A stretch of 49,534 bases of DNA, from positions 1 through 49,534 of the forward strand of contig JAKANS010000016.1 in NCBI GenBank assembly GCA_021823625.1, read 5' to 3'. The position numbers and the translations under genes are program-made. The stretch's first letter is position 1; each line of letters begins with the position of its first letter. The stretch is from a bacterium (GTDB lineage Bacteria > Verrucomicrobiota > Verrucomicrobiia > Limisphaerales > J093). The notes below the pieces were generated by a model. That model saw only the letters and a list, made by a program, of their open reading frames with translations, did no database searches and was not told where the DNA came from. Below, piece by piece: positions 7,206 to 49,508 of the stretch.

Positions 7206-8420
7206 TTACTTCTTCGACTTCGCGTCTTTCTTGGACTTCGCGTCCGAGGCGGCGTCGGCATCCTTGGCCGGCACGCCATCGAGGAAACGATTCAACTCGT
7301 CCTCGGTGAACGCCTTGGGCGCCATTTCCATCTGTCCACGCTCCGCTTGGGAGACCGCGGCGTACTGTTCGGGTGCATTCACGACGATCGGCGTCAGGAA
7401 AATGATGAGTTCGGTTTTCTGGTTCGAGGTGACCTTGTGGCGGAACGCGGCGCCCAAGAAGGGGATGTCTCCCAGCAGCGGGATCTTGCTGACGGATTCC
7501 GTTTTGTTGTTCGACATCAATCCGCCGATGATCACGGTCTCGCGGTTCCCGGTCACGACGACGGTGTCGGCCGAGCGCTTCGCGATGACGGGCACGGCGG
7601 CGTCTTTGGAAATCGCCACGGTCTGGTCGGTCAGCGACGAGATTTCCGGCGAGATGATCATTTCCACCATGTTGTCCGAACTGATGAACGGCGTCACCCG
7701 CAGGATGATGCCGACGTCCGTGTACTGGATGGAATTGATGGCGTTGCCGTAGTTGTCGTAGCGCACGCTGGTGATCAAGGGCACCGACTGACCGACGGTG
7801 ATCGTGGCGGGCTGGTTGTTGCGGGCCATGATCGACGGCCTCGACAGCACCTCGAGTTTCCCGGCCTGGGCGATGGCGCGCAGCGTCACCTGGTAATCCT
7901 GGCTGACGATCTGGTACAAGCCGGCCCCCGGCGGGGCGGGTTGAAAGCTCTGGAGCGGCTGCCCGAGCGCATTCACCGGAATGCCGTTGGAGCCGATCAG
8001 GCCGGAGAGGCCGAACACGTTTGCGGCGTTGCCGACGGTTCCGCTTGAACCGTCAATGTTCTTTCTCATCCCGCCTTCAACGCCGATATCGAGGCTGTTG
8101 TTGTGAGTGACTTCGAGGAACACGACCTTGATGAGCACTTGGGGCCGCGGCCGGTCCAGGTTGGTGATCACCTGGGAGACGTACTTGCTCGTTTCCTCGT
8201 CGGTGATGACGACGACCCGTTTGGTTTCCGGATCGACCGAGATCACCGCGTCGCCGACGGTGCTGTTGTTGTAGTATTCGCGGGTGCTGCCCGAGCCGGA
8301 GCTCGAGCGCCGCGTCGTTTGTCCGCCGAACTGGGCTTGCGCGGGCAACCACGCGCAGCAGCCCGCCAGGATGACCAGTGGCCATCGCCAAAAACTTGCA
8401 CGGTTGATCGTCATGTTCAT
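7206..8420 (-). CDS. gspD: Type II secretion secretin, pore-forming half (GspD C-part)
   Basis: 404 residues carrying the secretin beta-barrel domain that forms the outer-membrane gate of a type II secretion system. It has its own signal peptide (residues 1-30, cleavage likely after AQA). Residues about 50-100 (from DAVISVDPETKRVVV to VLIKVVFLEV) are only the second half of a KH-like secretin N-domain; the first half ends the preceding gene. The barrel shows the conserved VPLITS, YTDVGIILRVTP and VPVIAKRSADTVV...ETVIIGGL...PLLGDIPFLG segments (about 215-345). The C-terminus is Lys/Asp-rich (KSKKDAKSKK) and may be the pilotin-binding tail. It lies 42 bp after the N-domain gene and 36 bp before the kinase. 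A normal GspD is one chain of about 650-750 residues. Confidence 0.92.
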   Translation of the reverse strand: MNMTINRASFWRWPLVILAGCCAWLPAQAQFGGQTTRRSSSGSGSTREYYNNSTVGDAVISVDPETKRVVVITDEETSKYVSQVITNLDRPRPQVLIKVVFLEVTHNNSLDIGVEGGMRKNIDGSSGTVGNAANVFGLSGLIGSNGIPVNALGQPLQSFQPAPPGAGLYQIVSQDYQVTLRAIAQAGKLEVLSRPSIMARNNQPATITVGQSVPLITSVRYDNYGNAINSIQYTDVGIILRVTPFISSDNMVEMIISPEISSLTDQTVAISKDAAVPVIAKRSADTVVVTGNRETVIIGGLMSNNKTESVSKIPLLGDIPFLGAAFRHKVTSNQKTELIIFLTPIVVNAPEQYAAVSQAERGQMEMAPKAFTEDELNRFLDGVPAKDADAASDAKSKKDAKSKK

Positions 8421-8462
8421 CCTGTCATTCGTTAAGGGTTTCCGAGTCGCGCGTTTGGCGGC

Positions 8463-10193
8463 CTAAAAACCACCCTGGGTGGCACCGGTTCGGCGGGTGG
8501 TGCCGGAACCGAAGCCGCTGGACGTGCCGCTCGTGTTTTGCTGGTTCCGGCTGCGGTTGCTCAGGGCGTTGTTTTGCGTGGTCGAACTGCGGTTGTTCCG
8601 CGAGGTGGAGTTGCGTTCGAACATGTCCTGGAGCACCTGCTGCACCTGATCGACTTCCGCGTTCTCCAGCGAATAGACGTAAACGCGCTGCTTCTTGGCC
8701 GGACTCGAGTCGAGCTGGGCGATCATCGCTGCGATCTGCGGCATCAGGTCGCTGGCCGCGCTCACGATGACCGAGGAGGTGCGCATGTCGGCCACGGCGG
8801 TCACTTTGCCCTTTTGCTGGGCGCGGCTGCTTTCGGTGCTCTGATTGTTGCCGCCATTCATGCCGGGGAACGGAAACCCGCCGCGCCCGCCAAACCGAAC
8901 CGAAGAGCGGGTGTCGTCGGTCTTGGTGCTGTCCGGAAACACACTGGTGAGCGTGTCGGCCATTTCCTGCGGGTCGGAGTTGACCAAGTGGAACACGCGC
9001 AACTCGGTGATGTTCTCGGCGTTGGTATCGACCTCTTTCACGAGCTGCTCAATCGTGGGGATGACTTCCTCGGGCGCGCTGACCACCAGGGAGTTGGTGC
9101 GTTCGTCCGCCACGGCGGTCACGCGCGAGGCGGCCTGGCGCGCTTCGCTGACGCCGGTACCGCTATCGGTTCCAGTACCGCCACCCCCTGGGCCGCCGCG
9201 TCCCCCGAAACGGGCCATGAAGGGGTTGAAGTTGTTCCCGCCACGGGCGGACGTGCCGGTGTTCTGCGCGGGAAACAACTCTTTGACGATGATGGCCAAG
9301 TCCTTCGCATCCGCGTACCGGAGCGGGAAGACCCGGATCCCCGAAATGCCGGAAATCGACGTGTCCAGCGCCCGGACGATTTCCACCATCCGGCGAATGT
9401 CGGACTGCACATCGGTTAGAACCAGCGCATTGCCGCTTTCGTTGGCCGTAAGGTTCGCGAAGGTGGGCAGCAGGGGCGTGAGATCCTTGGTCATCTGCAC
9501 CGCGTTGGCGTACCGCACCGGGATGATCTGCGTGACCATTTCCTCGTTCTTGGGAATCTCTTCGGGTTTGTTCCCGACCTTGACCGGGATGTCGCGCTTC
9601 TTCGCCTCGTCACGGTCCACGATGGTCAGCATCCGGCCGTTGCGGATCGCCGCGTAACCGTTCTTGTTGAGAACCGAGTTCAACAGGTCCACCGCCTCGT
9701 CTTTGCTCAGCGGTTGGTTGCTCCAGACATCGACGTTGCCTTGCAACTTGGTTTCCACAACGATGATGAAGCCCGCGGCGTCGCTCAGGTAATTGAGCAC
9801 CATGTCCAACGGCACATTGCGGAAGTTCAAGCGCAGGCCCGCGGCCGGGTTGGCGCCCGGTTGTGCCGGGATGGGATCCATCGGCTTGGCCAGACCGGCC
9901 TGGCCAAGCCCGCCAGTTTCAGTGCCCGCCGGCGGTGCGGGCTCGCCGGGCGGTGGGGCCGCAGCCGGCGGCGATCCAGGCGAGGCGGCGTCCATAGCCG
10001 CGGGTGCGGCGGCTGCCGCCGGCTCTGCTGGCGCGGCTTTCGTCAGCGCGGGTGCAGTGCCGGTCGGAGCCGCCGCCAGCGATACGGCGGGTGCCGCCAC
10101 CGGCGGAGGGAGAGAAGCAGGCGGTTCGGCTGCGATCCCGGGGATCGTTGCCGAAAGACCGGCCAGGAGGATGAAGGTGGGGATGGCTTTCAT
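8463..10193 (-). CDS. gspD: Type II secretion secretin, periplasmic N-domain half
   Basis: 576 residues with secretin N-domains but no barrel. Order: signal peptide (1-22), a Pro/Ala-rich linker (23-117), N0 (about 118-195), N1 (220-280), N2 (284-395, with a Gly-rich insert) and N3 (396-497). The first half of one more N-domain follows (VYVYSLENAEVDQVQQVLQDMF, about 503-525), then a Ser/Asn/Gly-rich tail. The missing half of that last domain begins the next gene, so the two products together make one secretin. The start is the ATG at 10193, whose ATGA overlaps the stop of the GspC-like gene; a longer in-frame extension has no coding character. In known systems N0 contacts GspC and the other N-domains line the periplasmic channel. 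Confidence 0.9.
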   Translation of the reverse strand: MKAIPTFILLAGLSATIPGIAAEPPASLPPPVAAPAVSLAAAPTGTAPALTKAAPAEPAAAAAPAAMDAASPGSPPAAAPPPGEPAPPAGTETGGLGQAGLAKPMDPIPAQPGANPAAGLRLNFRNVPLDMVLNYLSDAAGFIIVVETKLQGNVDVWSNQPLSKDEAVDLLNSVLNKNGYAAIRNGRMLTIVDRDEAKKRDIPVKVGNKPEEIPKNEEMVTQIIPVRYANAVQMTKDLTPLLPTFANLTANESGNALVLTDVQSDIRRMVEIVRALDTSISGISGIRVFPLRYADAKDLAIIVKELFPAQNTGTSARGGNNFNPFMARFGGRGGPGGGGTGTDSGTGVSEARQAASRVTAVADERTNSLVVSAPEEVIPTIEQLVKEVDTNAENITELRVFHLVNSDPQEMADTLTSVFPDSTKTDDTRSSVRFGGRGGFPFPGMNGGNNQSTESSRAQQKGKVTAVADMRTSSVIVSAASDLMPQIAAMIAQLDSSPAKKQRVYVYSLENAEVDQVQQVLQDMFERNSTSRNNRSSTTQNNALSNRSRNQQNTSGTSSGFGSGTTRRTGATQGGF

Positions 10194-11278
10194 TTGTTTA
10201 ACTCCTGTTCTCGCTTTTGTAGAAGTCGTTTGAGTATCTCGCTCTCGTCGCCGCCGCTGCTGGCGGTCGAGAGCGAAGCCGAGGTGGTGGCGGTGGTTGT
10301 GGCCGTGGCGGTCTCGGTGGACGACGCGTAGGGTTGCGCCGGGCCGTCCAGCGTCCACGCCCCTTCGTCTTCGCGACGCATTTGCATGCCGACTTGAAGA
10401 TCGATCGTCTTGCCGTTGGCCGCCAACTGAACTTTGTCCGGGGTGACGTTGGTGATCTCGTAACCGGCGATCTGGTCCGAAGGCTTGAGCACCTTGCGGT
10501 AGCTGGCACTGCTGCCGTCAAAGAAGGCGAACGGGCCCTTGGCGTAAATCATGATGCCCACGAGCGAAAAAGATTCCACCCTGCGGGGGCGGCTGGGCTC
10601 GCGGTTTGGCCGGCTCGTCATCTGGGGGTAGCGGTTCGGGTCGAAAATGTTCCGGTCAGCGATGAGTTTGAACCGGGAGTAGTCCAGGCGGTTCGACGCA
10701 TTCGCGGGCGAGGGCGCCTCCGGTTCGGTCTGCGTGTCCGCAGTCGCGACGGGCGGGTTGGTCGCGGAAGTTGCCGGGCCATTCGTCTGCGGCTGGGTGA
10801 GGGGGGGCGTTTGGACCAACCCATCAGTCTTCGCCGTCACGTTCGTCGGCAGCGCGCCGGTGAGCGGGCGGGGCGGGGGTACGCCTTTCGGGCTCGCGGG
10901 CACGGTCGCGCCAACGGGTCGCGACGAACCCCCGCTGGCCGCAGGGAAGCGCCCATCGGCGGCCGGAGTTCCGGCGGGGGCGGTTCCCGCATCCGCGTTC
11001 GTGTCCGGCTCGGACGGTGGCGGTCCAAAGTCGCCCGGCGCGGGGACGACGATGTCAAAGGACGGGCCATTGCTATCGACGGGTCCCAGGCCAGGTTCCT
11101 GGCCAGGCTGAAATGGGATTTCCACCGCCACCACCTCCGGAGGGGGCAAAGGAGCGGCGGGTTCCTCGTCGGCGGCAAGCAGGTTGGCAACGGCGGCAAA
11201 CAGGGCCAGCCAGGCCGTCAGCGTCCGGGTGGGGCGGCGTGCGCTGCCGTTCGGCAGTTTCCTTCGAGGCGCGCTCAT
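10190..11278 (-). CDS. GspC/PilP-like inner-membrane linker protein of type II secretion
   Basis: 362 residues. The N-terminus has one hydrophobic segment (about 20-36, LTAWLALFAAVANLLA) acting as anchor or signal peptide, then a long Pro/Ala/Thr-rich periplasmic linker (about 37-195). The folded domain (about 200-305) has the homology-region pattern of GspC and PilP: FKLIADRNIFDPNR, LVGIMIYAKGPFAFFDG, IAGYEITNVTPDKVQL, GKTIDLQVGMQMRR. In known systems this domain joins the inner-membrane platform to the secretin N0 domain. The tail is Thr/Ala/Ser-rich and ends in a short charged helix. It overlaps the genes on both sides by 4 bp. Assignment rests on the domain pattern and position. Confidence 0.78.
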   Translation of the reverse strand: MSAPRRKLPNGSARRPTRTLTAWLALFAAVANLLAADEEPAAPLPPPEVVAVEIPFQPGQEPGLGPVDSNGPSFDIVVPAPGDFGPPPSEPDTNADAGTAPAGTPAADGRFPAASGGSSRPVGATVPASPKGVPPPRPLTGALPTNVTAKTDGLVQTPPLTQPQTNGPATSATNPPVATADTQTEPEAPSPANASNRLDYSRFKLIADRNIFDPNRYPQMTSRPNREPSRPRRVESFSLVGIMIYAKGPFAFFDGSSASYRKVLKPSDQIAGYEITNVTPDKVQLAANGKTIDLQVGMQMRREDEGAWTLDGPAQPYASSTETATATTTATTSASLSTASSGGDESEILKRLLQKREQELNK

Positions 11279-11808
11279 TTCGTCTCCGAGGTAAGGACCA
11301 GTCCGCTGAGTTGGAGTCCAAGGCCGATTTGCTGGCCGTTGTTATCGCGGGCGCTCAACTCGACCGATTCGAGCTTGAGCGCCAGCGGCGATTGTTCGAT
11401 GTCGTAAAGGAAGCGGCTCACCGACTCGAGGTTGCCGAAGGCATCCACCCGGCAGACCAGCGTCGAGTAATCCTCGGCGTCGCGCTTCCACTGCGGGGTG
11501 ACGCCCGTGACGCCAATGCGGCTTTCGCGCGACCAGGCCTCGACCGCCTTGCTCACCTGTTCCTCGGACGTGCTGGCCGGGAGGGTGTTGGTGCGCATGT
11601 CCTCCCAACGGCCGCGAATGAGCGACGCCCGCTTCACGAGTTCTTCTCCACTCGCCACCTTCTGGCGCAACTCCTGGATGCGGGCGGAACGGTCTTTCCA
11701 CCAGGTGGTGAGCGGCGTGAAGATCAGGTGGTCGCCCGCGAAGAAGGCGGCGGCCCCGATCGCGGCGACCGTGAGCAATTGTTGGCGGTTGTTAGTTGGC
11801 ACTGGCAC
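11275..11808 (-). CDS. GspM/PilO-like assembly platform protein
   Basis: 177 residues with one N-terminal membrane helix (about 12-30), a coiled coil (about 38-65, WWKDRSARIQELRQKVASGEE) and a small ferredoxin-like C-terminal domain (about 90-175, with FLYDIEQSPLALKLESVELSARD). This is the layout of GspM and PilO, which pair with GspL/PilN in the inner-membrane platform of type II secretion and type IV pilus machines. It overlaps the L-like gene by 17 bp and the C-like gene by 4 bp. Family assignment is by layout and operon position, as these proteins are poorly conserved. Confidence 0.78.
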   Translation of the reverse strand: MPVPTNNRQQLLTVAAIGAAAFFAGDHLIFTPLTTWWKDRSARIQELRQKVASGEELVKRASLIRGRWEDMRTNTLPASTSEEQVSKAVEAWSRESRIGVTGVTPQWKRDAEDYSTLVCRVDAFGNLESVSRFLYDIEQSPLALKLESVELSARDNNGQQIGLGLQLSGLVLTSETK

Positions 11809-13249
11809 CTCCTTCTTCCCGGTGGAAGTCGAATGTGAATTGGATCGGGGAGCGGCCGCGGGTCGTCGGCCCGTGCAGATCGGTGACGCCTGGGGTGGTG
11901 CGGAGCCGTTCCATCGTTTGGAGCAAAGCCTGGTTTTCCTTCGCCACCCCCGTACAGGTGACCGTGTTGAGGTTGCGGATTTCCACCGTTTTCGCCGTCA
12001 CCACGCCATCCTCGGGGAACGATTCCGTCAGCTGGCGCAGGATGCTCAAACCGCGGAAGGAACTGTCGAACCACGAGCGAAACTGGCGGATGCGGTCCTG
12101 CGTGGCCTTGAGTTCGGTGACTTCCTGGGAGATGGCGGCCCAGCGCGAGCCGAGGCGCGAAAGTTGCCACTGCTGGATCAGAAACATGCCGGCGACAATG
12201 ACGGCCAAGGCGACCGCGCCCGCCCCCCCCACCGTGATCTTCCGCGACGCGTAACGGTCGGCGAGCTGCTGCCAGGCACTGACTTTGGGGGGCAGAAACT
12301 CGAAGGTCGGCTTTTCGCCGAGCAGGTGGCGCACGGCCAGGCTCACCGCGGGGGTCACGGCCGTTCCGGCGGGCAGGAACACGCCGAACTCGCCGGGGTG
12401 ATATTGCTCGACCAACTCGACGTGCAGGCCGGCGGATTCCAGCCGCAAGCGAATTTCATCCGCGAGTTGCCGCGCGCGCGCGCGCGGACCGAACACGCGC
12501 ACGCGCCGGACTGCGTCGCGCAGGTCGGGTGGCATTTGCCCCAAGGTGATGCGCGTCTCGCGGGCGACTACGTCCGCGTAAGGCTGGTGCGTGCCGCCTT
12601 CGGATTCCTGCGCGCCTTGCAGCACGCGCAAGGCCGCGACGCCACCGCCGCAGGTGGCCTGGAGGCCGACGTGGTTTTCGCCCACGATCAAAGCCAGGAC
12701 ACCGTTGGCGGTTTCGGCGTGGGCGGGCTGGAGCGCCGCGGCATCCAAGGAAAAGCTGACGGGCGTGAGCTGGGCCGCGTGCAGCACCTGCTCGAGCCGG
12801 GCCAGATGGCTGCGCGGGACGCCGGCGAGGGTGGCGTGCCCCGTGCCGGCGGGCGAGCGGTACCGCGACGAGGCCACGAACAGCGTCGTGACATCGCACG
12901 GAAAGCCGCGCTCCGCCTCGGTCTGGAGCAACGCGGCCACGTCGCCTTCGGGCAATTCGGGCAGCGTGGTGTGAACGGTGAGCACCCACTTCAACGGCAA
13001 GCCGACGACGCAGCGGCGTTCGCGCACACCGGCCGCGTTGAGGTGATTCCGGATTTCGCGCCCGACGAGGATGGGGTCGTTGGTCAGCGGATCGAGCGAG
13101 AGCTGGACCGAGAAAGCGTGGCGGACCAGCACGGAGCCGTTCTGGCGCCGCACCTCGACGCCTTCCATGCGGCTGCCGTCCAGGCTCAGTCCCAACAGCG
13201 CCGACAAGCGCTGGGTTTTGATGCGACCCAATTTTAGAAGGCGGTTCAT
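11792..13249 (-). CDS. GspL-like protein (PilM-PilN fusion layout)
   Basis: 485 residues. The N-terminal 325 residues form an actin-like PilM/GspL cytoplasmic domain (LLGLSLDGSRMEGVEV at the start; CVVGLPLKWVLTV; GVLALIVGENHVGLQ). A membrane helix follows (about 343-362, ITVGGAGAVALAVIVAGMFL), then a coiled coil and a PilN-like periplasmic ferredoxin-type domain (about 400-485). In type II secretion GspL binds the GspE ATPase and GspM. It overlaps the K gene by 4 bp and the M-like gene by 17 bp. A 16-bp alternating CG tract at 12471-12486 encodes an RARAR segment of the actin-like domain. Confidence 0.83.
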   Translation of the reverse strand: MNRLLKLGRIKTQRLSALLGLSLDGSRMEGVEVRRQNGSVLVRHAFSVQLSLDPLTNDPILVGREIRNHLNAAGVRERRCVVGLPLKWVLTVHTTLPELPEGDVAALLQTEAERGFPCDVTTLFVASSRYRSPAGTGHATLAGVPRSHLARLEQVLHAAQLTPVSFSLDAAALQPAHAETANGVLALIVGENHVGLQATCGGGVAALRVLQGAQESEGGTHQPYADVVARETRITLGQMPPDLRDAVRRVRVFGPRARARQLADEIRLRLESAGLHVELVEQYHPGEFGVFLPAGTAVTPAVSLAVRHLLGEKPTFEFLPPKVSAWQQLADRYASRKITVGGAGAVALAVIVAGMFLIQQWQLSRLGSRWAAISQEVTELKATQDRIRQFRSWFDSSFRGLSILRQLTESFPEDGVVTAKTVEIRNLNTVTCTGVAKENQALLQTMERLRTTPGVTDLHGPTTRGRSPIQFTFDFHREEGGASAN

Positions 13250-14655
13250 CGTATTCCGTTTGCAGCCACCTGCAATTGCTCCAAATCATGGCGGGCCTCC
13301 GAGCCCAACGCCCAGCCGAGCGAACTCAGATCCCGCCGATAGACGATTCGCGGGGTGCCGTCGCTGAGATCGAAAACAAACCGCACCCGCCGATACCCGC
13401 GGCCGTATGGGCCGACGGCGGCGATGTCGGCCGTGAATTGATAACTCTGCGTCGTGATGTAATCGCCGCCCTCCAGGGCGGTGAGCGCTTCGCTGTTGCT
13501 CTGGCTCAGGGCGTCCGCGACCCACGCGACCGAGGTCAGGTTGCCGGAATTGCCCTGACGAAACGCAACCATCTGCTGCGCGGCCGCGGTGTCGCCGCCG
13601 AGCAGGCAGGCCAGAACGGCGGCGCTGGCGGTGTTCACGTTCACCCGGCCCTGAACGGTCGATCCGCTGGCCACCGTGAAGGCGTCGGCAACTTGCGCGA
13701 ACTCATCGGCAGTCATCCCGCTGAGACGGTAGAACTGGAGCACACTCTTGGGCTGGGCCGGCGTCGCTCCGCCGCCCGGCCCACCACCGCCGCCACCGCC
13801 ACCCGCCAGGCCGAGGCGGGCCATGATTTCGTTGGCCCGGCCAGAGTTGAAGTTGGTTTCCAGGAGCGTGCGCAGTTGCTCGGTGGAACTGCTCAGGTTG
13901 GCGACGTTGATGCGCGCCGAGCCGTCGCTGCGGGTGTTGGGTTCGCGGGTGTAAAGCGTCAAGTACTCCAGCAAGCCGGGATCGAGCACGCCGTTCTGGT
14001 CGTCGTCGATCTCGCCCGCATCGAGCGCGCCGTTGAGGTTGGAGTCATCGCCGTAAAGCATGAACATGTCCGCGCCATAGACGAGCCGGAGTTCTTCAAG
14101 CGTCTCGAACGGGGCGCACTTGCACTGGTAAGCCGGGCGCAGCATGGCGTAGTACGTTTCCGACGCGCCGCCGTTGGTGCTGCGCCAGTCCGTCATGGAC
14201 TCGAGCAAGTCGGCGGTCATGCGCGGCAACCATTGCAGGACGTTCGACGAGGCGGTGTTGAGGTTCAGCTTCGAGCCTTCGTCCACCAGGCCGAAGTACG
14301 GCTGGAACGGGCCGCGTTGAACGAGGTTCGTGTCGCGGCCAATCAACCAGACGTAACCATCGCCGACCGGGACCTCGGCGCTGCGATACATCGTGGGGTC
14401 GGGGATGGCGCCGTTCGTGGCGAGGGTGAGCAGCACGGCGCTGACGTAACGGGCGGCACCTTCGATTTCTTCCTCGGCGGCCAGGCCGCAAACACGGTTG
14501 TCGGACGCCTTCAACTCCGAACTCATCGAATTCGCGAAGTACAGAGTGATGGTCACCAGGCCGAGCGCGATCCAGAGCACGATCACGAGCACGGAGCCGC
14601 GCTGGCGCGGTCGCCCGGCAACCGAATCGACGGCCACTGGCAGACGCGTGGTCAT
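13246..14655 (-). CDS. gspK: Type II secretion minor pseudopilin GspK
   Basis: 469 residues, a typical size for GspK, the largest minor pseudopilin, which caps the tip of the pseudopilus. After a short basic leader the hydrophobic helix GSVLVIVLWIALGLVTI (about 20-38) replaces the usual FTLIE start and lacks Glu5, as is normal for K. The body has helix-hairpin-helix-like repeats with the KLNLNTAS motif (near 130) and again GRVNVNTASAAVLACLL (near 340), separated by an insert with a (G)8 run (GLAGGGGGGGG). A DDDQNGVLDPG stretch may bind calcium, as in known GspK. ATGA overlaps join it to J and L. Confidence 0.9.
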   Translation of the reverse strand: MTTRLPVAVDSVAGRPRQRGSVLVIVLWIALGLVTITLYFANSMSSELKASDNRVCGLAAEEEIEGAARYVSAVLLTLATNGAIPDPTMYRSAEVPVGDGYVWLIGRDTNLVQRGPFQPYFGLVDEGSKLNLNTASSNVLQWLPRMTADLLESMTDWRSTNGGASETYYAMLRPAYQCKCAPFETLEELRLVYGADMFMLYGDDSNLNGALDAGEIDDDQNGVLDPGLLEYLTLYTREPNTRSDGSARINVANLSSSTEQLRTLLETNFNSGRANEIMARLGLAGGGGGGGGPGGGATPAQPKSVLQFYRLSGMTADEFAQVADAFTVASGSTVQGRVNVNTASAAVLACLLGGDTAAAQQMVAFRQGNSGNLTSVAWVADALSQSNSEALTALEGGDYITTQSYQFTADIAAVGPYGRGYRRVRFVFDLSDGTPRIVYRRDLSSLGWALGSEARHDLEQLQVAANGIR

Positions 14656-15362
14656 TGCTGACCTCCCGAGCTTTCAGCGTCGTTCGTCGCCGTCACCTGC
14701 ATGGACAGCGGGACGAGCAACTCCAGGATTTCCGGGTTGCGGGCCGCGGCGGCGTTCGTGGACGCCATCAGAAGGCGAACGCGGATGGCCACCGGCAGGT
14801 TCGTGTCGCCGGCCGTGGTGTCCCACGAGTCGCGCCAGTTGCTGCCGTCGAAGCAAAGGAACTCCATCCGGTCGATGCCGCCCAGCAGCCACTGCGGTTC
14901 GGGTTGTTCCTGAACGGTGGCCAGCAGGTTGCGCGACACGTACCGGACCAGGTCCTTGCCAAAGCTGCGGTTGTGGTCCGCGGGAGGCTGGAGCACATAG
15001 GCGACTTCCTGGACGTCGCCCCAAGGGTGGGCGTCATCGAGGCGGCCGGTGGTGGTGAAGCATTGCAGGCCCTGCGCTTGCGCGGTGCCGAAGCCGATGT
15101 TGATCGCGCTCACGACGAACGAAGTGGCCAGCACGCCGCCGGGCGGCAGGATGCTGCGCAGGTCGCCGCGCATGATGGACAACGCGCGGCTGCGCGGCAG
15201 CGAGTCATCCAGCACGGCGGAGGTGCGCTCGCGGAGCCGCAGTGCGCTGTAAAAGACGGTGTTAATCGCCACCAGCACGATCGAGAAGATCGTCACGGCA
15301 ATCAGCAGCTCGAGCAGCGTAAACGCGCGAGCGGCGGACGAGGCTGGACGGGTGGCGGTCAT
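14652..15362 (-). CDS. gspJ: Type II secretion minor pseudopilin GspJ
   Basis: 236 residues. The start is the ATG at 15362, which overlaps the GspI stop as ATGA; the longer in-frame extension does not look coding. The prepilin motif is AFTLLELLIAVTIFSIVLVAI, cleaved after Ala13, with Glu at mature position 5. The rest is a beta-rich globular domain (LRERTSAVLDDSLPRSRALSIMRGD; MEFLCFDGSNWRDSWD) with the usual J pattern, ending in a beta-strand that fits MRVRLLMAS-type sequences. It would join I and K at the pseudopilus tip after cleavage by a prepilin peptidase, which is not in this window. Confidence 0.87.
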   Translation of the reverse strand: MTATRPASSAARAFTLLELLIAVTIFSIVLVAINTVFYSALRLRERTSAVLDDSLPRSRALSIMRGDLRSILPPGGVLATSFVVSAINIGFGTAQAQGLQCFTTTGRLDDAHPWGDVQEVAYVLQPPADHNRSFGKDLVRYVSRNLLATVQEQPEPQWLLGGIDRMEFLCFDGSNWRDSWDTTAGDTNLPVAIRVRLLMASTNAAAARNPEILELLVPLSMQVTATNDAESSGGQQ

Positions 15363-15829
15363 GGCGTCTGGGTGCCCGTGGAGGTGGTGTTGGTGGCGCT
15401 GATCGTGTCGGCGGAACTGTCCACCAGCGTGCTCAGGCGCACAAAGTAGTCCTGGCCCTGGACCGGGTAAGTCACCTCGACCGAAAGCAGGTTGATCGTA
15501 GGCTCGTTGAGATCCTGATTCCATGCCTGGCTTTGCAGGGTCCAACGGTACTGGCGGTCGCCTTCCACGATGGTGCCGCTCTGGCTGGATTGGTTCCAAT
15601 TCGTCAAGGCGACGGATTCGCTGAGCACCCGCTCGGCCACCTGCGCGGCCTCGGATTTGCGCGCGGCCACCACGCCGGCGCGGCTGGCGATGTGCAGACC
15701 CTGCATGGCCACCGGGATGACGATGGCCATGAACAGCAGCGCGGCGAGCACCTCGGCGAGCGTGAAACCCGCCTGGGAGCGGTCAGCGCCGGAGGCTGTT
15801 CCACTGGTTGGTCGGGTTCCCAATTTCAT
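15359..15829 (-). CDS. gspI: Type II secretion minor pseudopilin GspI
   Basis: 156 residues with the prepilin motif GFTLAEVLAALLFMAIVIPVAM (cleavage after Gly21, Glu at position 5 kept as TLAEV). A short globular domain follows (KSEAAQVAERVLSESVALTNW; YRWTLQSQAW; VEVTYPVQGQDYFVRLSTLV), matching GspI size and pattern. GspI starts the tip complex with J and K in known systems. Its start lies 47 bp inside the end of the H gene and its stop overlaps J by 4 bp, so translation is probably coupled. The Ser/Thr-rich C-terminus is not conserved in the family. Confidence 0.85.
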   Translation of the reverse strand: MKLGTRPTSGTASGADRSQAGFTLAEVLAALLFMAIVIPVAMQGLHIASRAGVVAARKSEAAQVAERVLSESVALTNWNQSSQSGTIVEGDRQYRWTLQSQAWNQDLNEPTINLLSVEVTYPVQGQDYFVRLSTLVDSSADTISATNTTSTGTQTP

Positions 15830-16448
15830 AATCCATGCCGTTCCAGGCGCGCTGGAGGGCGATCTCTTTGTCGTTGCGATCCCGCAACCGCACCACCGTG
15901 GGACTGGTTTCGTCGATCGTGCCGTCGGGCAGAAAGCGAATCTGCGGCCCGTTGTGGCGATTCAGCAGGGCCGCATCGCCCTGGCTCCGTGCCGAAGTGG
16001 ACAGGGTGCGGCTGCGGTTCATATTCGCACTGCTGAGCAAGGTCTGCGGGGGCGGGGTGGCGATCTCCAGGCGGAGGTCTTTGTCGATCTTGAACTCCAC
16101 CGCCTTCGGATCGAAATCGGTGCCCCGGCCGGTGTTGCGACTGGTGTTTTCCAGATTCTCCGTGGCATAGCTGGGATCTTCCTCCAAGCCATAAGTGCGC
16201 TCGGCCGTGTCGAACCAAAGCACCATCGGCACGCCCTCGGAGACCGCGCGGCTCTGCCCCTGGCGGGTGAGCGCCAGCAACCGTCGAGCCTCGGCGTCGA
16301 GCGTGCGTCCGCGGAAGAAGTTTCCCAGCGACGGCGCGGCCACGGAAATGACGATGGTGAGCAGGGCCATGACCAGCATCAGCTCGACGAGCGTGAACGC
16401 GCGCGCCGTCCGCGGCTCAGCGCTTGTTCTGCCAGTTCGTAATGTCAT
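15783..16448 (-). CDS. gspH: Type II secretion minor pseudopilin GspH
   Basis: 221 residues. The prepilin motif is AFTLVELMLVMALLTIVISVAAPSL (cleavage after Ala17), then the GspH/FimT-type segment FFRGRTLDAEARRLLALTRQGQSRAVSEGVPMVLWFD, which is the family hallmark. The C-terminal domain contains IRFLPDGTIDETSPTVVRLRDRN. GspH sits just below the I-J-K tip in the pseudopilus. It overlaps G by 32 bp and I by 47 bp. Ala rather than Gly precedes the cleavage site, as in J of this operon. Confidence 0.87.
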   Translation of the reverse strand: MTLRTGRTSAEPRTARAFTLVELMLVMALLTIVISVAAPSLGNFFRGRTLDAEARRLLALTRQGQSRAVSEGVPMVLWFDTAERTYGLEEDPSYATENLENTSRNTGRGTDFDPKAVEFKIDKDLRLEIATPPPQTLLSSANMNRSRTLSTSARSQGDAALLNRHNGPQIRFLPDGTIDETSPTVVRLRDRNDKEIALQRAWNGMDYEIGNPTNQWNSLRR

Positions 16449-16866
16449 CGTCGCCTCCCACGCGTTTGTCGGGCCCCATGGACATCAGGTCGTAGGAGCT
16501 GGGGTTGTTGCGACCGGGACATTCGTAAATGTATTCGTTGTTCCAGGGGTCCTTGGGAATGTCCTTCACGTACGGCCCATGCCAGCTTTGGGCGTCGCGC
16601 GGTTGCTCGACCAGGTCTTGGAGACCGCTCTTTCCCTTCGGGTAATAGCCGTTGTCCACCTCGAAGGCGTCCAAAGCGGTGGCGAAGGAGTTGATCTGCG
16701 TCGTCGCGGCGGTGATGCGGGCCTGTTCGGTGCGGCCGGCGAATTTGGGGACCACGATCGCCGCCAGAATCCCGAGGATCACCAGCACCAGCAGGAGCTC
16801 GATCAATGTGAAGCCCCCGGTGCCGCGCCCTCCATGTTGAGTCTTGAGGATGGGTTTGCAGTTCAT
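16417..16866 (-). CDS. gspG: Type II secretion major pseudopilin GspG
   Basis: 149 residues, the standard size. The ATG at 16866 begins a basic leader ending GTGG, then FTLIELLLVLVILGILAAIVVPKF with Glu at mature position 5, the canonical class 3 prepilin start. The globular part has the GspG hallmarks: a helix RITAATTQINSFATALDAFEVDNGYYP, the WHGPYVK segment, KDIPKDPWNNEYIYECPG and the Ca-binding end SMGPDKRVGGDDDITNW. It is the main subunit of the pseudopilus that pushes substrates through the secretin. It begins 20 bp after gspF. Confidence 0.96.
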   Translation of the reverse strand: MNCKPILKTQHGGRGTGGFTLIELLLVLVILGILAAIVVPKFAGRTEQARITAATTQINSFATALDAFEVDNGYYPKGKSGLQDLVEQPRDAQSWHGPYVKDIPKDPWNNEYIYECPGRNNPSSYDLMSMGPDKRVGGDDDITNWQNKR

Positions 16867-16886
16867 GATTTGGCCTCGTGTGTCGC

Positions 16887-18149
16887 TTACTTGATGTATT
16901 GTTGCAGAGTAAAGATCGGCAGAACCATGCTGATGAAAATCGTTCCGATGAACCCGGCGATGAGGAACAGCATCAGCGGTTCCGCAAAAGCCACCGCGGT
17001 CTTCAACTCGCGGTCCAGATCGCCCTCCGTGACGTTTGCCAGGCGGACCAACTCGGAGTCGAGCTTGCCGCTTTCCTCCGCGACGGAAATCATCTCGAGG
17101 ACCGACCCGTTGAACAGGCCCTTGCAGTCCGCCAGGCTCGCACCGAGCTGGCCGCCTTCCTGAACGCGCTCGATGGATTGCGCGACCGCGTCCACCAGGA
17201 TCTGGTTGCCGATGGATTTGCGCGCCACGCTCAGGCCTTGAACGAGCGGCACGCCGGCGCCGAGCAGCGTGCCCAGCATCCGGCAAAAGCGCGACATGGC
17301 GAACTGGCCGACGAGCGGGCCCACCAGCGGTGCCTGCAGGATCATACCTTCCCAAGTGCGCCGCCCTTTCTCGGAAGCCAGCCAGTTGCGCACCATGAAG
17401 AAGACGATTACCAGCGCTGCCGCGACGAAGAGTCCGTACTTGCGAACCACCTCGCTGGTGCCCACCACGATCTGAGTCGCCATCGGCAGCGCGGCGCCGA
17501 AGCCGGAGAACACGGCCTGGAACCGCGGGATGAAGAACGTGAGCAGGAAAATCACGACGCCCAAGGCGAGCACGAGCAGGATGCTCGGGTAAAGCATCGC
17601 GGTCATGACCTTCGACCGAAGTTCCTTCTCGCGCGCCTGAAAGTCCGCGATTTGTGCGAGCACCAAGTCCAGGAACCCGCCGGTCTCGCCCGCCTGCACC
17701 ATCGCCACGTAAACGCGCGGGAAGGTCTTCGGTGATTTGGCCATCGCGTCGGCCAGTGACATGCCGTCGATCACCAGGTCGTGGATTTCCTTCCACTTGG
17801 CGGCGGCGGCGGGCGTGGAGGCTTCCTTGTAAAGAATCACCAAAGCGCGGCTGAGCGGCACGCCGGCCGCGAGCAGGCTGGAAAGCAGGCGCGTGAAGTT
17901 CTCGAGTACGCGCGGCGAAATGCGCTCGGCATTCCCGCCGAGCGAGAAACCGCCGAGCAATTTCTTCAGATCACCGCCGTGGTTGTCCTTGCTGGCGGCG
18001 GCGGCAGCGGCGCTTTTTTCGGCCAGGTTGATGGGGCGCAAACCCATCGTTTCCATCTGGCGGAAGGCTTCCTGGCGTCCCGTGGCCTCGAGCTGGCCTT
18101 CGGCCACCCCGCCGTTCGCCTGGAGCGCTTTGTATTGGAAGACTGGCAT
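16887..18149 (-). CDS. gspF: Type II secretion inner-membrane platform protein GspF
   Basis: 420 residues, the usual length. The N-terminal segment MPVFQYKALQANG is typical of GspF/PilC. Two T2SSF domains (about residues 80-200 and 285-405) each carry the pattern FTRLLSSLLAAGVPLSRAL / FCRMLGTLLGAGVPLVQGL, and three membrane helices are visible (about 180-200, 225-255 and 390-415). It organises pseudopilin extraction from the membrane and couples to the ATPase. The gene is 15 bp downstream of gspE and 20 bp upstream of gspG. Confidence 0.95.
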   Translation of the reverse strand: MPVFQYKALQANGGVAEGQLEATGRQEAFRQMETMGLRPINLAEKSAAAAAASKDNHGGDLKKLLGGFSLGGNAERISPRVLENFTRLLSSLLAAGVPLSRALVILYKEASTPAAAAKWKEIHDLVIDGMSLADAMAKSPKTFPRVYVAMVQAGETGGFLDLVLAQIADFQAREKELRSKVMTAMLYPSILLVLALGVVIFLLTFFIPRFQAVFSGFGAALPMATQIVVGTSEVVRKYGLFVAAALVIVFFMVRNWLASEKGRRTWEGMILQAPLVGPLVGQFAMSRFCRMLGTLLGAGVPLVQGLSVARKSIGNQILVDAVAQSIERVQEGGQLGASLADCKGLFNGSVLEMISVAEESGKLDSELVRLANVTEGDLDRELKTAVAFAEPLMLFLIAGFIGTIFISMVLPIFTLQQYIK

Positions 18150-18164
18150 GGTCAGGGCAGCGGG

Positions 18165-19931
18165 TTAGCGCCGGGCCAATGCCACGCTGGCCGGCGTGCC
18201 TTCCTCCTCGTCAGACTCCACGGCCTTGGTGCTTCGCTCGATTTCCTTGGCGGTGGTGACACTCAAGACTTCCTCGACCGTGGTAAGCCCCAGCCGCACG
18301 AGCCGCCAGCCGTCTTCGGCCAGCGTGCGCATCCCGCCGCGCCGGGCGGCGTCGCGGATCAAATCGCTCGAGGAGTTCTTGAGGATCAACTGGCGGATTT
18401 CGTTGTCGGAGTTCATCCACTCGAAGATGGCGTGCCGGCCGTAAAAGCCGGTCTGGCGACACTCACGGCAACCGACCGACCGGTAAATCGTGGCGTTCGG
18501 TGGGATGCCGACCTGTATTTTGAATGATTGCGCCGCCGGCGAATCGTCCACCTGCCGGCAATGCTTGCAGAGCACGCGCACCAGGCGCTGCGCCAGCACG
18601 GCTTCGAGCGACGACGCCACCAAGTAAGGCTCCACGCCCATGTCCACCAGGCGGGTCAACGCGCCCGGCGCATCGTTGGTATGCAAAGTCGAGAACACCA
18701 GGTGGCCGGTCAACGACGCCTGGACCGCAATCTGGGCGGTCTCGTGGTCGCGGATTTCGCCGATCAGAATCACGTCCGGGTCATGCCGCAAAATCGAACG
18801 CAGGCCGCGGGCGAAGGTGAGCCCGGCCTTTTCGGAAACTTGGATCTGGTTGACGCCCCGGAGCTGGTACTCGATCGGGTCCTCGATCGTGATGATCTTG
18901 CGGACCGCGTCGTTGATGGTGTTGAGCGCCGTGTACAGGGTGGAGGTTTTGCCGCTGCCGGTCGGGCCGGTGACCAGGATGATGCCGTGCGGGAGTTGGA
19001 GGACTTGCTGGAAGCAGTTGAGCTCGCGGGTATCCATGCCCAGCTCCCGCATGCCGAGCAGCGTCGAGTTCTGGCGCAGCAAACGCATCACCACCGCCTC
19101 GCCGTGCAGCATCGGGATGACCGAGACGCGGATGTCCACCTCGGCGTCGTCGATGCGAATTTTGATGCGGCCGTCCTGCGGCAGACGCTTTTCCGCAATG
19201 TTCAGGTGGCTCAGGATTTTGACGCGGGAGACGATCGCCGGCTGAAAGCGCTTGATCTGCGCGGGCACCGGCACCTCCTGCAACACACCGTCGATGCGGT
19301 AGCGGATGCGGAGTTCGTCCTCGAACGGCTCCAGGTGAATGTCCGAGGCGCGCAGCTCGATGGCGTCGCGCAACACCTGGTTCACGAAGCGGATGATCGA
19401 AGCGTCCTCGGCGGCGCTGTCGAGGTTGGTGTCCTCCTCGGGGTTTTCGTCCACGACCTGGAAGGAGGCTTCCTCGTCGAGCGTGTCGATCGTGTCCGCG
19501 CCCACGCCCAGGCGCTTCTTCATCTCGCGCTGGATCGCCTCGCTCGAGGCCAGCACGGGCTTGAGATTCAAACCGGTCAGGGTCTTGAGCGCGTCCAGAC
19601 CCTGGGTGGCGAACAGGCGGCTGGTGGCCACCTCGACGGTGCCGTTGACGCGCTTGAGCGGCAGCAGTTCCTCCTTGAGCAGGAGGCGCGCGGGGAACAA
19701 CGAGAGAAGCTGGCGATCGGGATCGACGTCCTCCAACGTCGTGAAGGCGAGGTCGTACTCCTGGGCGAGCCAGCGCAGGATGTCTTCCTGGGTCAAAGCG
19801 GACCCGGCGGCCGTCGTTGAGCCGGCCTGCCGTAACCAGGCCGCCGCATCTTGCAGTGACAATTGCTTGTTCGCGATCATCTGGTCGAGCAAAGGCTTGA
19901 CCGATGGCGCCGGAGTGGAGGTTTCGTTCAT
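18165..19931 (-). CDS. gspE: Type II secretion ATPase GspE
   Basis: 588 residues. The N-terminal GspE/PilB domain (about 15-150) contacts the L-like protein in known systems. The ATPase core has Walker A GPTGSGKTS, Asp-box IITIEDPIEY, Walker B ILIGEIRDHETA and His-box TGHLVFSTLHTNDA. A zinc-binding insert with two CxxC pairs (LCKHCRQ and GCRECRQ) marks the GspE/PilB branch. It powers pseudopilus assembly from the cytoplasmic side. It is the first secretion gene proper of the operon, 45 bp after the small secreted protein gene. Confidence 0.96.
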   Translation of the reverse strand: MNETSTPAPSVKPLLDQMIANKQLSLQDAAAWLRQAGSTTAAGSALTQEDILRWLAQEYDLAFTTLEDVDPDRQLLSLFPARLLLKEELLPLKRVNGTVEVATSRLFATQGLDALKTLTGLNLKPVLASSEAIQREMKKRLGVGADTIDTLDEEASFQVVDENPEEDTNLDSAAEDASIIRFVNQVLRDAIELRASDIHLEPFEDELRIRYRIDGVLQEVPVPAQIKRFQPAIVSRVKILSHLNIAEKRLPQDGRIKIRIDDAEVDIRVSVIPMLHGEAVVMRLLRQNSTLLGMRELGMDTRELNCFQQVLQLPHGIILVTGPTGSGKTSTLYTALNTINDAVRKIITIEDPIEYQLRGVNQIQVSEKAGLTFARGLRSILRHDPDVILIGEIRDHETAQIAVQASLTGHLVFSTLHTNDAPGALTRLVDMGVEPYLVASSLEAVLAQRLVRVLCKHCRQVDDSPAAQSFKIQVGIPPNATIYRSVGCRECRQTGFYGRHAIFEWMNSDNEIRQLILKNSSSDLIRDAARRGGMRTLAEDGWRLVRLGLTTVEEVLSVTTAKEIERSTKAVESDEEEGTPASVALARR

Positions 19932-41033: not shown

Positions 41034-41936
41034 TTACTGATTCCGCGCCGTCGTGTGCGCCTGCACCCAGGCCACATCCGGGTTGCCTGGGGCATAACCG
41101 AACGAGGTGGCAAAAGCCACGGTGCGCGGGTCCTGCCAGCGGTGAATCTCCGCCCGCCCGTCGGCGAAGGCGAATCCGCCGCCAAAGTCGTGAGAGCTTT
41201 CCGGCCAATCCACGAACCGCAGGTTCGCATCGGTTCGCATGGAGGTTGCGAAATACCCGTCGTTGATGCTCAGGGAATCCTCGCCGACGAAGGTGTGAAG
41301 CTGCGTGGGCGCGAGGTGCACGATGTCCGCCAGCCGCCCGTAGGTTCGCCAGGTCGTATTGGCCCGGTGGTTGTGATTCCCGTCCAGCCAAGGCCCGTCC
41401 GTCGGATTGTGGCCATCCGCCTGGGTGCCCACCGCGCCGTTCAAGGAGTAGCTGCGTGCGGCGGGTACGATCGATCCTTGGAACGCCACACTCGTCCCTT
41501 GGTAGCGGCCGGTCCGGGGGTCGGCTGGACAGCGGAACGGCTCCGCTTCGCGGCCGAGGTAGCTGGCAAGCTGGGACTGGGCCGGATTCTGGAGAATCTC
41601 CGGGTTGAATTCCTGCGCGCCCCCTGGTCCCGCCTGCCCGCCCACCCAGTTGTAGCCCGTGGTCGAGCCGTCATCGACGTTGCCGGGCAGGAACCCGCTG
41701 TGGTCTTCGGCGAACAGCAGCCAGCCCTGGGCGAGGCGACGCAGGTTGTTCAGACAACCCGCGCTCGCGGCGCCGCCGCCCGAGGTCGCCAGCGCAGGCA
41801 GTCCCAGCAGGGCCAGCAAGCCCGCCGCGAACAGCAACGCCAGCAGGTCCGCCCGCGAAAAGGCCCGGCACCGCGGGCGGTCGGTTGGCACGCGACCGAG
41901 TCGTGGAGAGAGAGCGTTCAAGCACCTGGTTTTCAT
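41034..41936 (-). CDS. Prepilin-like protein with H-X9-DG domain
   Basis: 300 residues. The N-terminus has a basic leader and RAFSRADLLALLFAAGLLALLGLPALA (cleavage would fall after Ala25), a prepilin-like helix in which Glu at mature position 5 is replaced by Asp30. The next segment, CLNNLRRLAQGWLLFAEDHSGFLPGN, is typical of verrucomicrobial and planctomycete prepilin-like proteins. The C-terminal H-X9-DG pattern is HDFGGGFAFADG. Such proteins are thought to be exported or assembled by pseudopilus-type machinery, but their role is unknown. A sigma-54 promoter lies about 26 nt of leader upstream of the start. Confidence 0.85.
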   Translation of the reverse strand: MKTRCLNALSPRLGRVPTDRPRCRAFSRADLLALLFAAGLLALLGLPALATSGGGAASAGCLNNLRRLAQGWLLFAEDHSGFLPGNVDDGSTTGYNWVGGQAGPGGAQEFNPEILQNPAQSQLASYLGREAEPFRCPADPRTGRYQGTSVAFQGSIVPAARSYSLNGAVGTQADGHNPTDGPWLDGNHNHRANTTWRTYGRLADIVHLAPTQLHTFVGEDSLSINDGYFATSMRTDANLRFVDWPESSHDFGGGFAFADGRAEIHRWQDPRTVAFATSFGYAPGNPDVAWVQAHTTARNQ

Positions 41937-41972
41937 GGTCGTAAGCGGTGGTCCGATTCCGGGCTGTAACTA

Positions 41973-41988
41973 AGCAGTGTTCGTGCCA
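41973..41988 (-). promoter_or_regulatory. Sigma-54 promoter of the H-X9-DG prepilin-like gene
   Basis: On the minus strand the bases read TGGCACGAACACTGCT. The upstream box TGGCACG is a perfect match, GG and GC are exactly 10 bases apart, and the downstream box is CTGCT (four of five). The predicted transcript starts near 41962, about 26 nt before the ATG at 41936. The gene run beyond the terminator-like hairpin (PQQ-like, CRTAC1, haem protein) may be partly included. Confidence 0.75.
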
Positions 41989-42026
41989 CCAATGTCGCCG
42001 TCGAGGCCGGTCTGACCCTCCCGACT

Positions 42027-42042
42027 TGGCACAGGCACTGCT
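42027..42042 (+). promoter_or_regulatory. Sigma-54 promoter of the PD40-type propeller gene
   Basis: The bases read TGGCACAGGCACTGCT. The box TGGCAC is perfect, GG and GC are exactly 10 bases apart, and the downstream box is CTGCT. Transcription should start near 42053, leaving about 28 nt before the ATG at 42081. The mirror promoter on the other strand has the same spacing to its gene. Confidence 0.75.
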
Positions 42043-42080
42043 TAGTAAACGCAAGCAGAACACCTCAAACAGCCCGAGCT

Positions 42081-45000
42081 ATGTCAACGCCAAACTGGAT
42101 CTCAGGGACACTCGCTGCACTGGCGCTTTCGACCGCCCTGCTCGCTCTGGGAGCCATCACTCCTGCGCCGCAGCTCCTCAGCAAAGCCACGGTCCACTCG
42201 GCCACCGCCAACGGCGATTCGACCGTGGCGGCCATGAGCGCAAATGGCCGTTTCGTCGTCCTGGCCAGCAGCGCCTTGGACCTGACCGCGGCCGCGAACC
42301 CAGGCAACTTTGCCCAACTCTACCTTTACGACACGACGAGCGGACACCTCAACCTTATCAGCGCGACGCCAGCCGGTGCGGGTGGCCACGGTTATTCCGG
42401 CGCGCCGAGCGTCGCTGACGATGGCCGCTGGGTTGTTTTTGAAAGCGAGGCCGGCGATCTCGCGCCGGGCGACACCAACGGCTTGAAGGACGTGTTCCTT
42501 CGCGACAGCGTGGCTGGCACCACCGTGCGGATCAGCGCCACGCCAGCCACCGCAGCGGCTGGCGGTGGTGCTTCTGGTGCGCCGGTCATGACGCCGGACG
42601 GAGCCTGGATCGCGTTCGAGAGTAATGCCAGTGCCACCAACCTCGTCGCCGGCGTGACTGATGGCAACCGCGCGAGCGACGTGTTCCTTTACAGCGTCAA
42701 GACCGGAACTTGCCGCCTGGTGAGCCAAAGCTATGCCAGCCCCCAAACCGGCACCAAGGCTTCCTGGGGGCCAGTGCTCAGCGCGGACGGGCGCCGTCTC
42801 GCTTTCTTCAGCTTAAACACCGGTTTGGCCGCCGACACCCCCGGCACGAACTCCCAACCGTTGCTTTACCTGCACGACATGGCTGCGGGAACGAACCTCT
42901 GGGCCAGTCGTGGCGCGACGAACCACCCGATTGCGTTGACGAATACCTCGCGGCTCGTGCCTTGGAAGGCGACCTTCAGCGGCGATGGACGCTTCCTGAT
43001 CTACGCCTACGGCCCGCTGGTGCTCCGCTACGATCCGGCGAGCGACACGACCTTGCTCGTGGCGACGAACTTGGCCGAGGCCGGCCTGCCATTCTTTGGG
43101 CCATCGCCGATCGCGGCGAATGCCGACGGCAGCGTGATCGCCTTCCAAGGCACCCGGAGCAATGTGCTGGCCGCGGCCCAAGCGCCCGACGCGGTCTTCG
43201 TCTGGCGCGAGGCCGACCAATCGGTGTCGCGGCTCGAAGTGCCGGTCGCCGACGCCGCGGTCGTTGGACAAGTCGGCGGGCCGGTGGTCAGCGCCGATGG
43301 ACGCTTCGTGGCGTACCAGGCCCAGCTCCTCGCGCCCGTTGCCGGCTTCCCATCGCCGGGCGTTTACGTTTTCCGTCACGATCTGGTCGCCAACGCTGCG
43401 GCGGTGGTCAGTGCCTCGGACGCGACGCCGGGCGAAGGCATTCCCAACCTGTGGCACCCGGTTTGGAGTGCCGATTTGAACCGGCTCGGTTTCAGCAGCG
43501 ACGCGCCCGGCCTGATTGCCGGTGACAACAACCGCGCGCTGGACGCGTTTCTATTGACGGTGGATCCACTGGAACTGCGCCTGCTTTCGCCGCGCGACCC
43601 CGCGGTGGTCTCGGTCACGGCCGCGAGTCCGAGTTGGGCCCGACCGCAGTGCCTCAGCGCGGACGGTCGCTATCTCGTGTTCACCAGCGCGGCGGAGGAC
43701 TTGGTTCCGAACGACCGGAATGGTGTCGGCGACGTGTTTCTGCAAGACCTCACTACCGGCTCGAACTCGCTCGTGAGCGTCAACCTTGCCGGGACCGCTT
43801 CGGGCAACGGCGGTTCGCACAGTCCGGTGATCAGCGCGGATGGTCGCTTTGTCGCTTTTGCCAGCCTGGCAAGCGACCTCGTGGATGGCGATACCAACGG
43901 CTTGAACGACGTTTTTGTGCGCGGCTTGGAGACGAGCACCACCGAACTCGCGAGCCATGTGCTCAGCGGGACCGGCAGCGGCTCCGGCAGTTCGCTCTAT
44001 CCCAGTATCAGCGCCGACGGCCGGTTGATCGCCTTCGAGAGCCTGGCGACGAATCTGATGTCGCCGGACTTGGTGAATCCACTCCGGCAGGAATACCTGA
44101 GCCCGATTCGCGATGTATTCGTGTTCGACCGGATCGCCCGAACCAATCAACTCGTGACCCTCAGCAACGACAGCACCGGCAGCCTGGTCCTGGGTGGTTT
44201 TTCGGCGGTGCTGGCTCCGGATGGCCGGCACGTCATCTTCCGGGATGGGACGTTGATCTTCTACGTTCGCGACCTGACCAGCCAAACCACGGCCAAAGTG
44301 CAGGAGCCCCCGGGAACCCTGTTTCGGCTCACGGGAACGGAATCGCAGCCGATCTCGATCAGCGCGGACTCGAAATGGGCCGCCTTTGCTGGCACGAACG
44401 CGACCTTCAACAGCGTTTTGGTGCGGAGCTTCGAGGGCGATGCCAGCTTGGTCTTGCCGGCGCGCGCAGGCACGCCCTCGCTCTCGGCTGACGGTCAACG
44501 CGTGGCGTACACGTTTCTTTCCAACCCGGCCGCCGGACGCCAGGTGTACGTCCGCGATTTTGCCAACGACACCACGAATCTCGTGAGCGTCAGCCTGGAT
44601 GGAGTTACTCTGGGAAACGGCTCGTCCTATCAACCGGTGATCAGTGGCGATGGGCGGTACGTCGTGTTCAAAAGCGTGGCGACAAACCTGGTCCCGCACG
44701 ACACCAACCGCTACGGCGATATCTTTGTGCGTGACCTGACGGTGGGCCGGACGTTGCTGGTGAGCGCGACCGCCGCGGGCGCTTTTCCCAACTTCGGCTC
44801 GCTCTCGCCGGTGATCGGGCCGGACGGGCGCACAGTGGTGTTCATGAGTTGGGCCACGGACCTGGCGGCGGGCGATCTTAACCGCGCCAGCGACCTCTTT
44901 GTTCTGCGACTCGGCTCTGGGCCGGCGGCCGACTCCGATGAGGACGGCCTGCCGGACGATTGGGAGCTGACTTACTTCAACAGCCTAATCCGCGATGGCG

Positions 45001-48533: not shown

Positions 48534-48559
48534 TAGAGCATTTACATTTATTATGTAGC
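48534..48559 (+). repeat. Left terminal inverted repeat of the IS630-family element
   Basis: 26 bp, TAGAGCATTTACATTTATTA followed by TGTAGC, matching the right end at 22 of 26 positions in inverted orientation. Confidence 0.85.
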
Positions 48560-49474: not shown

Positions 49475-49508
49475 GCCGCACCCGACCACGTCATCCGAGT
49501 AACGGCAA

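Follow-up and report, generated by a model that had tools for sequence, protein, structure and literature searches.

The H-X9-DG proteins form a huge, functionally unassigned family, with dozens of gene copies per genome here, and no paper on their function or regulation was found in the open-access literature searched; among 5.39 million open papers, the family names led to a single, unrelated one. In the window, by which we mean the whole stretch of DNA analysed (49,534 nt), a gene for a pseudopilin-like protein with the H-X9-DG motif (P0005) and a gene for a secreted PD40 beta-propeller (P0006) diverge from a gap of 144 bp between their ATGs, and this gap holds an inverted repeat. The first-pass annotation read the repeat as two sigma-54 promoters that place both genes under common control. 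Is the repeat a pair of promoters, do the two genes belong together, and what would switch them on? Our answer, with a probability of about 0.85, is that two back-to-back divergent sigma-54 promoters drive the H-X9-DG gene and its cognate secreted PD40 propeller gene, and that an AAA+ activator switches them on together.

Two outward-facing sites in one gap

A repeat search of the window gives two arms of 20 nt each, 85% complementary and 38 nt apart (Table 1). The arms match at 17 of 20 positions and all three differences (GAA vs AGG) fall within the N5 spacer, hence the repeat, described earlier as near-perfect, is perfect at the conserved positions. Read outwards, both arms give TGGCAC-N5-CTGCTTAGT, a sigma-54 -24/-12 pattern whose GG-N10-GC spacing is exact, and both are exact matches to the short sigma-54 consensus TGGCACNNNNNYTGCW, in a TGGCAC-N5-TTGCW-like context. 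When the C of GC is taken as -12 to place the predicted +1, leaders of 26 and 28 nt are predicted, in line with the 26–28 nt proposed at first pass. Both sites reach 13 on a sigma-54 site score (maximum 13) that was defined after the window sites were known. The genome also encodes RpoN (PF04552, E=3.6e-59), on which the earlier reading depended, and has 16 matches to the sigma-54 activator domain, around 12 of them full length. Judged by its gene content, the host is probably a verrucomicrobial bacterium.

Table 1 Features of the window discussed in the text.
Feature	Position	Strand	Basis or remark
Predicted sigma-54 promoter, H-X9-DG gene: TGGCACGAACACTGCTTAGT	41969..41988	-	sequence, inverted repeat, genus motif
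Elements of this promoter	-24 GG 41987-41986; -12 GC 41975-41974; predicted +1 41962	-	
Predicted sigma-54 promoter, propeller gene: TGGCACAGGCACTGCTTAGT	42027..42046	+	sequence, inverted repeat
Elements of this promoter	-24 GG 42028-42029; -12 GC 42040-42041; predicted +1 42053	+	
Spacer between the two -24 elements, 38 bp	41989..42026	.	no dyad symmetry, no relative-type enhancer found
H-X9-DG pseudopilin-like P0005, 300 aa	41034..41936 (ATG at 41936)	-	prepilin-like N-terminus RA/FSRADLLALLFAAG, H-X9-DG motif HDFGGGFAFADG
Secreted PD40 beta-propeller P0006, 1074 aa	42081..45305 (ATG at 42081)	+	PF07676 E=1.5e-25
NtrC-type sigma-54 activator P0008	4245..5597	-	receiver + AAA+ + Fis-type HTH; candidate activator
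Membrane sensor histidine kinase P0009	5625..7169	-	HisKA, HATPase_c; adjoins P0008 gene
Type II secretion operon	7206..19931	-	GspD, E, F, G, H, J, K in one operon
Secretin, two genes	7206-8420, 8463-10358	-	N-domains and secretin domain separate
GspK	13246-14655	-	
GspJ	14652-15599	-	
GspH	15783-16448	-	
GspG	within 16417-17796	-	
GspF	16887-18149	-	
GspE	18165-19931	-	
DDE_3 transposase gene	48551-49489	-	at contig end

The two sites are not equally close to the form seen in the genus. An alignment of nine genus sites gives TTGGCAC-N5-YTGCTTAGTAAA; the plus site matches TTGGCACN5YTGCTTAGTAA exactly, and the minus site has two mismatches to it, with GTTAC in place of GTAAA, so without the extended AAA, and with no upstream pyrimidine. 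This is an argument for a different view, in which one site only is an active promoter and the other a decoy or the relic of a promoter-copying inversion, with no true co-regulation. Several divergent relatives fit that view in having a site on one side only (L197, L180), but in two others (L152, L164) sigma-54-like sites face both divergent genes, and the leader lengths at the two window sites are nearly equal. The arms, moreover, resemble each other only at the promoter positions and differ beyond them, an argument against a recent duplication. We regard a single active promoter as improbable, though it is the strongest competitor of paired promoters.

The short consensus has 12 matches on both strands of the 6.1-Mb genome compared with 16 for its reversed control, and given this lack of enrichment a single match is weak evidence; for the same reason, site counts alone were kept out of the evidence. 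Two outward-facing matches in one gap, in a rough estimate that assumes ~1500 divergent gaps, are expected ~2e-5 times per genome, so the earlier remark that matching on both sides is hard to get by chance holds. The extended form TGGCACNNNNNNTGCTTAGT (TGGCACN6TGCTTAGT), which adds the TTAGT common to both sites, has four exact matches in the window's genome, where its reversed control has none (two across all 58 genomes). Each of the same-genus genomes G001 and G003 has one match, and the other 55 genomes searched have none. When the whole collection was scanned for the extended motif, possibly without the window's own genome, matches came from 24 scattered genomes with no clear lineage.

That TTAGT makes the motif longer than the classical sigma-54 consensus, and that the short consensus lacks genome-wide enrichment, would suit a repeat that is the operator of another regulator, with inverted repressor or activator sites merely resembling -24/-12 elements. 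However, no copy departs from GG-N10-GC, single copies stand upstream of genes elsewhere, and the same -24/-12 form is phased with an enhancer dyad in relatives (below), all of which makes an operator very unlikely. Finally, chance resemblance, for which the background rate of single strict matches could be invoked, is less likely still in view of the outward-facing pair, the counts for the extended motif and the restriction of full-score sites to propeller-paired genes described below.

Extended sites are also found before intergenic sequence. One precedes a stretch that is conserved in three genomes of the genus: the window's own (L049:8485-8720, contig C28), G001 (L079:7026-7260) and G003 (L080:7348-7580). 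This stretch contains a GGTTGGTTG-rich segment, has a strong hairpin at its end (z -2.6 to -3.5), lacks a convincing ORF and is a candidate for a small RNA that depends on sigma-54. On contig C196 of the window's genome (L050:9271-9480), an extended site is followed by a 12-bp GC hairpin and T-rich sequence (z -3.9), a second small-RNA candidate with no sequence relationship to the one on C28. The stretches behind the C28 and C196 sites match no Rfam family, and the ORFs of 289 and 176 aa downstream of these sites look like non-coding frames.

The pseudopilin and its propeller partner

P0005 is homologous to ~70 paralogous places in its own genome, and to many paralogues with canonical FTLIELL N-termini. 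Against the H-X9-DG-CTERM/DUF1559 profiles (TIGR04294, PF07596) it gives no NCBIfam match at E<=10 and none in Pfam; a second H-X9-DG protein of the genome, P0003, obtains 11.7 bits in the family profile test, where the cut-off is 19. Since P0005 has the family N-terminus, the H-X9-DG motif and the homology but does not reach the profile cut-off, it is, judged by sequence, a divergent relative of the family and not a cut-off member. P0006 carries a bacterial TSP3 repeat near its C-terminus (PF18884, E=1.5e-8) in addition to its propeller.

Propeller homologues were gathered from genomes of the same order, and the gene surroundings were read at 59 loci. At 50 of these, the propeller gene directly adjoins an H-X9-DG gene. 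Of the 59 loci, 55 were found by similarity to P0006 and are therefore not independent of the query; from the estimate that H-X9-DG genes make up ~1–2% of genes, adjacency is expected by chance at a few percent. At least five of the nine unpaired propeller loci are near contig ends or are fragments. The H-X9-DG gene lies upstream on the same strand in 22 cases, downstream on the same strand in 14 and divergently in 14, and this variation in order while adjacency is kept points to a functional link. It suggests that the propeller and the H-X9-DG pseudopilin form a conserved functional pair and work together on the cell surface. The locus itself is not preserved in the genus: in G001 both genes are reduced to remnants, which lie next to each other.

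Do predicted sigma-54 sites follow the pair? Among 54 H-X9-DG ORFs checked in the window's genome, a propeller gene accompanies exactly two: that of the window, and P0003, which lies on contig C259 and is followed on the same strand by a homologue of P0006 (E=9.7e-73). These two are also the only ones to score 13/13, so that full-score sites precede 2/2 propeller-paired and 0/52 other ORFs, a coincidence of 1 in 1431 by chance; the next-best site (11/13) lies inside its own ORF. The genome scan proposed at first pass, for sites before other H-X9-DG genes, thus yields one further strict site, that of P0003, while 52 of the 54 genes checked have no convincing site, and what such sites track is the propeller partner. 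The P0003 site (L051, C259, 6971 down to 6952, minus strand) is near the ATG, with a predicted transcript that is almost leaderless. A sigma-54-like site of the genus form, CTGGCATTGCACCTGCTTAGGAT, also stands before an NHL-repeat propeller gene on contig C103 (L135:1484-1525), the third propeller gene with a sigma-54-like site in this genome.

Across the order, 8 of 70 regions upstream of pairs (6 excluding the window) score at least 11, against 0/70 for reversed and ~0.7/70 for shuffled controls. With ~60 of the 68 regions outside the window having no strict -24/-12 site, sigma-54 control of the pairs would be common, not universal. For the window, the two full-consensus sites and the pairing at 50 of 59 loci both support the predicted co-regulation of the H-X9-DG and PD40 propeller genes.

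What follows on transcription from the two sites, on the activator and where it binds in this genome, and on the role of the proteins is our inference. Sigma-54 polymerase would occupy both sites in closed complexes, inactive and facing outwards; once an AAA+ enhancer-binding protein had melted the DNA, both genes would come on together. One activator releasing both promoters would give matched amounts of pseudopilin and propeller. Probably the pseudopilin acts as a pilin-like carrier or receptor, with the propeller as its surface or extracellular partner, which the pseudopilin would help to deliver or display via type II secretion or type IV pilus-like machinery. The conserved adjacency, the prepilin-like N-terminus, the signal peptide and the propeller fold are the grounds for this carrier or display role.

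Candidate activators and an enhancer dyad in relatives

In relatives, the loci L144, L152 and L197 carry a dyad GCGTGA-N3-TCACGC upstream of their sigma-54 sites; in two cases the dyad is doubled, at a distance of 20 bp. The five perfect copies at these loci are the only ones in the 1.3 Mb examined, where seven control dyads gave none, and across 18 genomes per-genome counts amount to 109 dyad sites compared with 6 for the reversed control. A sigma-54 site lies 40–100 bp from the dyad at 19 of 59 dyad loci examined, compared with 2.7% at random positions, a fraction that is not unbiased because the loci were partly picked via the dyad or the propeller. Dyad centres are 49–94 bp upstream of the -26 T, with distances that cluster at 49–51, 62, 70–73, 80–83 and 94 bp and are periodic at 10.5 bp (R=0.75), that is, in helical phase. 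To judge from these sequences, the dyad with its phased sigma-54 sites is what one would expect of promoters served by an enhancer-binding protein. Eleven dyad/sigma-54 loci precede H-X9-DG genes and others precede genes for secreted proteins, one of them a PEP-CTERM protein (L216), and together they make a candidate enhancer/sigma-54 regulon, mostly before H-X9-DG and secreted-protein genes, that appears unreported in the open-access literature searched.

One genome, G212, holds 28 dyad sites (for example L236-L257), most of them copies of GCGTGAAAATCACGC without a nearby sigma-54 site. These copies may belong to a repeat family, or the dyad may be put to a second use there; part of the dyad excess is hence something else, perhaps a repeat element.

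At the window this dyad is absent, the best match having four mismatches. The other sigma-54 sites of the window's genome have poor matches only, the four dyads found in that genome do not adjoin good sigma-54 sites, and within 220 bp upstream of either window site there is no perfect 6+6 palindrome. Projected from the spacing in relatives, enhancers would fall at ~41933-41977 and ~42038-42082, each in the leader of the opposite promoter. The proposal that the 38-bp spacer holds the activator site is therefore unsupported, with no site found there and the relatives' spacing pointing elsewhere; the other part of that proposal, an activator of the NtrC type, fares better, as the genome has such activators and one is encoded in the window itself. 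This genome may rely on a different activator with a different site, or else the activator acts from a distance.

The activator gene in the window (P0008) and the adjoining kinase gene (P0009) lie at the end of the type II secretion operon and are candidate, unproven regulators of the pair. P0008 has orthologues with 68–74% identity and a conserved recognition helix in 12 other genomes; its linkage to the kinase is kept in G027, G111, G131 and G151, and that of kinase and secretin in G027, G111 and G151. The division of the secretin into two genes recurs in G027, G111 and G151 as well, and so is not a sequencing error. We did not adopt P0008 as the dyad-binding protein: G163 has the dyad with a sigma-54 site (L197) and no P0008 orthologue, which makes that role improbable, and the window's genome has P0008 yet no dyad at its sigma-54 sites.

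A broader hypothesis, which we hold tentatively and at rather less than even odds, is that H-X9-DG pseudopilins and secreted propellers are dedicated carrier–cargo pairs in an order-wide, on-demand sigma-54 regulon with its own dyad, of which the window would be a compact version with the activator replaced. If true, it would mean a first partner for the H-X9-DG family, and a first account of how its genes are regulated. A conserved partner and a common activator-dependent promoter make H-X9-DG function testable, in terms of which two proteins act, when, and with which machinery, and the dyad offers a way to search, with nothing but sequence, for the activator and all members of the regulon.

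Comparison with known systems

The promoters are of a known kind; the gene pair and the dyad regulon appear to be unreported in the open-access literature searched. The TIGR04294/PF07596 families share with P0005 the prepilin-like N-terminus, the H-X9-DG motif and the large number of paralogues, and differ in that neither a propeller partner nor predicted sigma-54 control was found described for them in that literature.

In Pseudomonas, Acinetobacter and Geobacter, PilS/PilR and sigma-54 control the pilin gene pilA. The window resembles this system in having a pilin-like gene with a -24/-12 promoter, and a histidine kinase and an NtrC-type activator near pilin or secretion machinery. It differs in its predicted target, a pseudopilin of the H-X9-DG type that has a secreted propeller as its partner, and in that the kinase–activator pair is in a type II secretion operon and is only a candidate regulator of the pair. 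Among the matches listed for P0008 there is no dedicated PilR profile.

The PEP-CTERM/PrsK–PrsR regulon is a sigma-54 regulon of scattered surface-protein genes, in which an activator motif is followed ~60 nt on by a -24/-12 motif; Prs motif 1 ends in TTTACA and is found only in Proteobacteria, and Verrucomicrobium spinosum lacks PrsK/R/T (Haft et al. 2006, PMC1569441). The dyad regulon has the same succession of activator motif and -24/-12 motif, and a PEP-CTERM protein among its targets. Unlike the Prs regulon, its activator motif is GCGTGA-N3-TCACGC and its main targets are H-X9-DG genes. In a profile test that covered P0008 and P0009 of the window, both fall below the Prs cut-offs, with 315.9 vs 502.6 bits for P0008 against PrsR (TIGR02915) and 65.3 vs 300 bits for P0009 against PrsK (TIGR02916).

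More generally, sigma-54 has been described as a controller of the bacterial exterior, with surface and secreted products as its targets, in a paper whose main text makes no mention of Verrucomicrobia, Planctomycetes or prepilins (Francke et al. 2011, PMC3162934). The predicted targets here agree with that view in being surface and secreted products.
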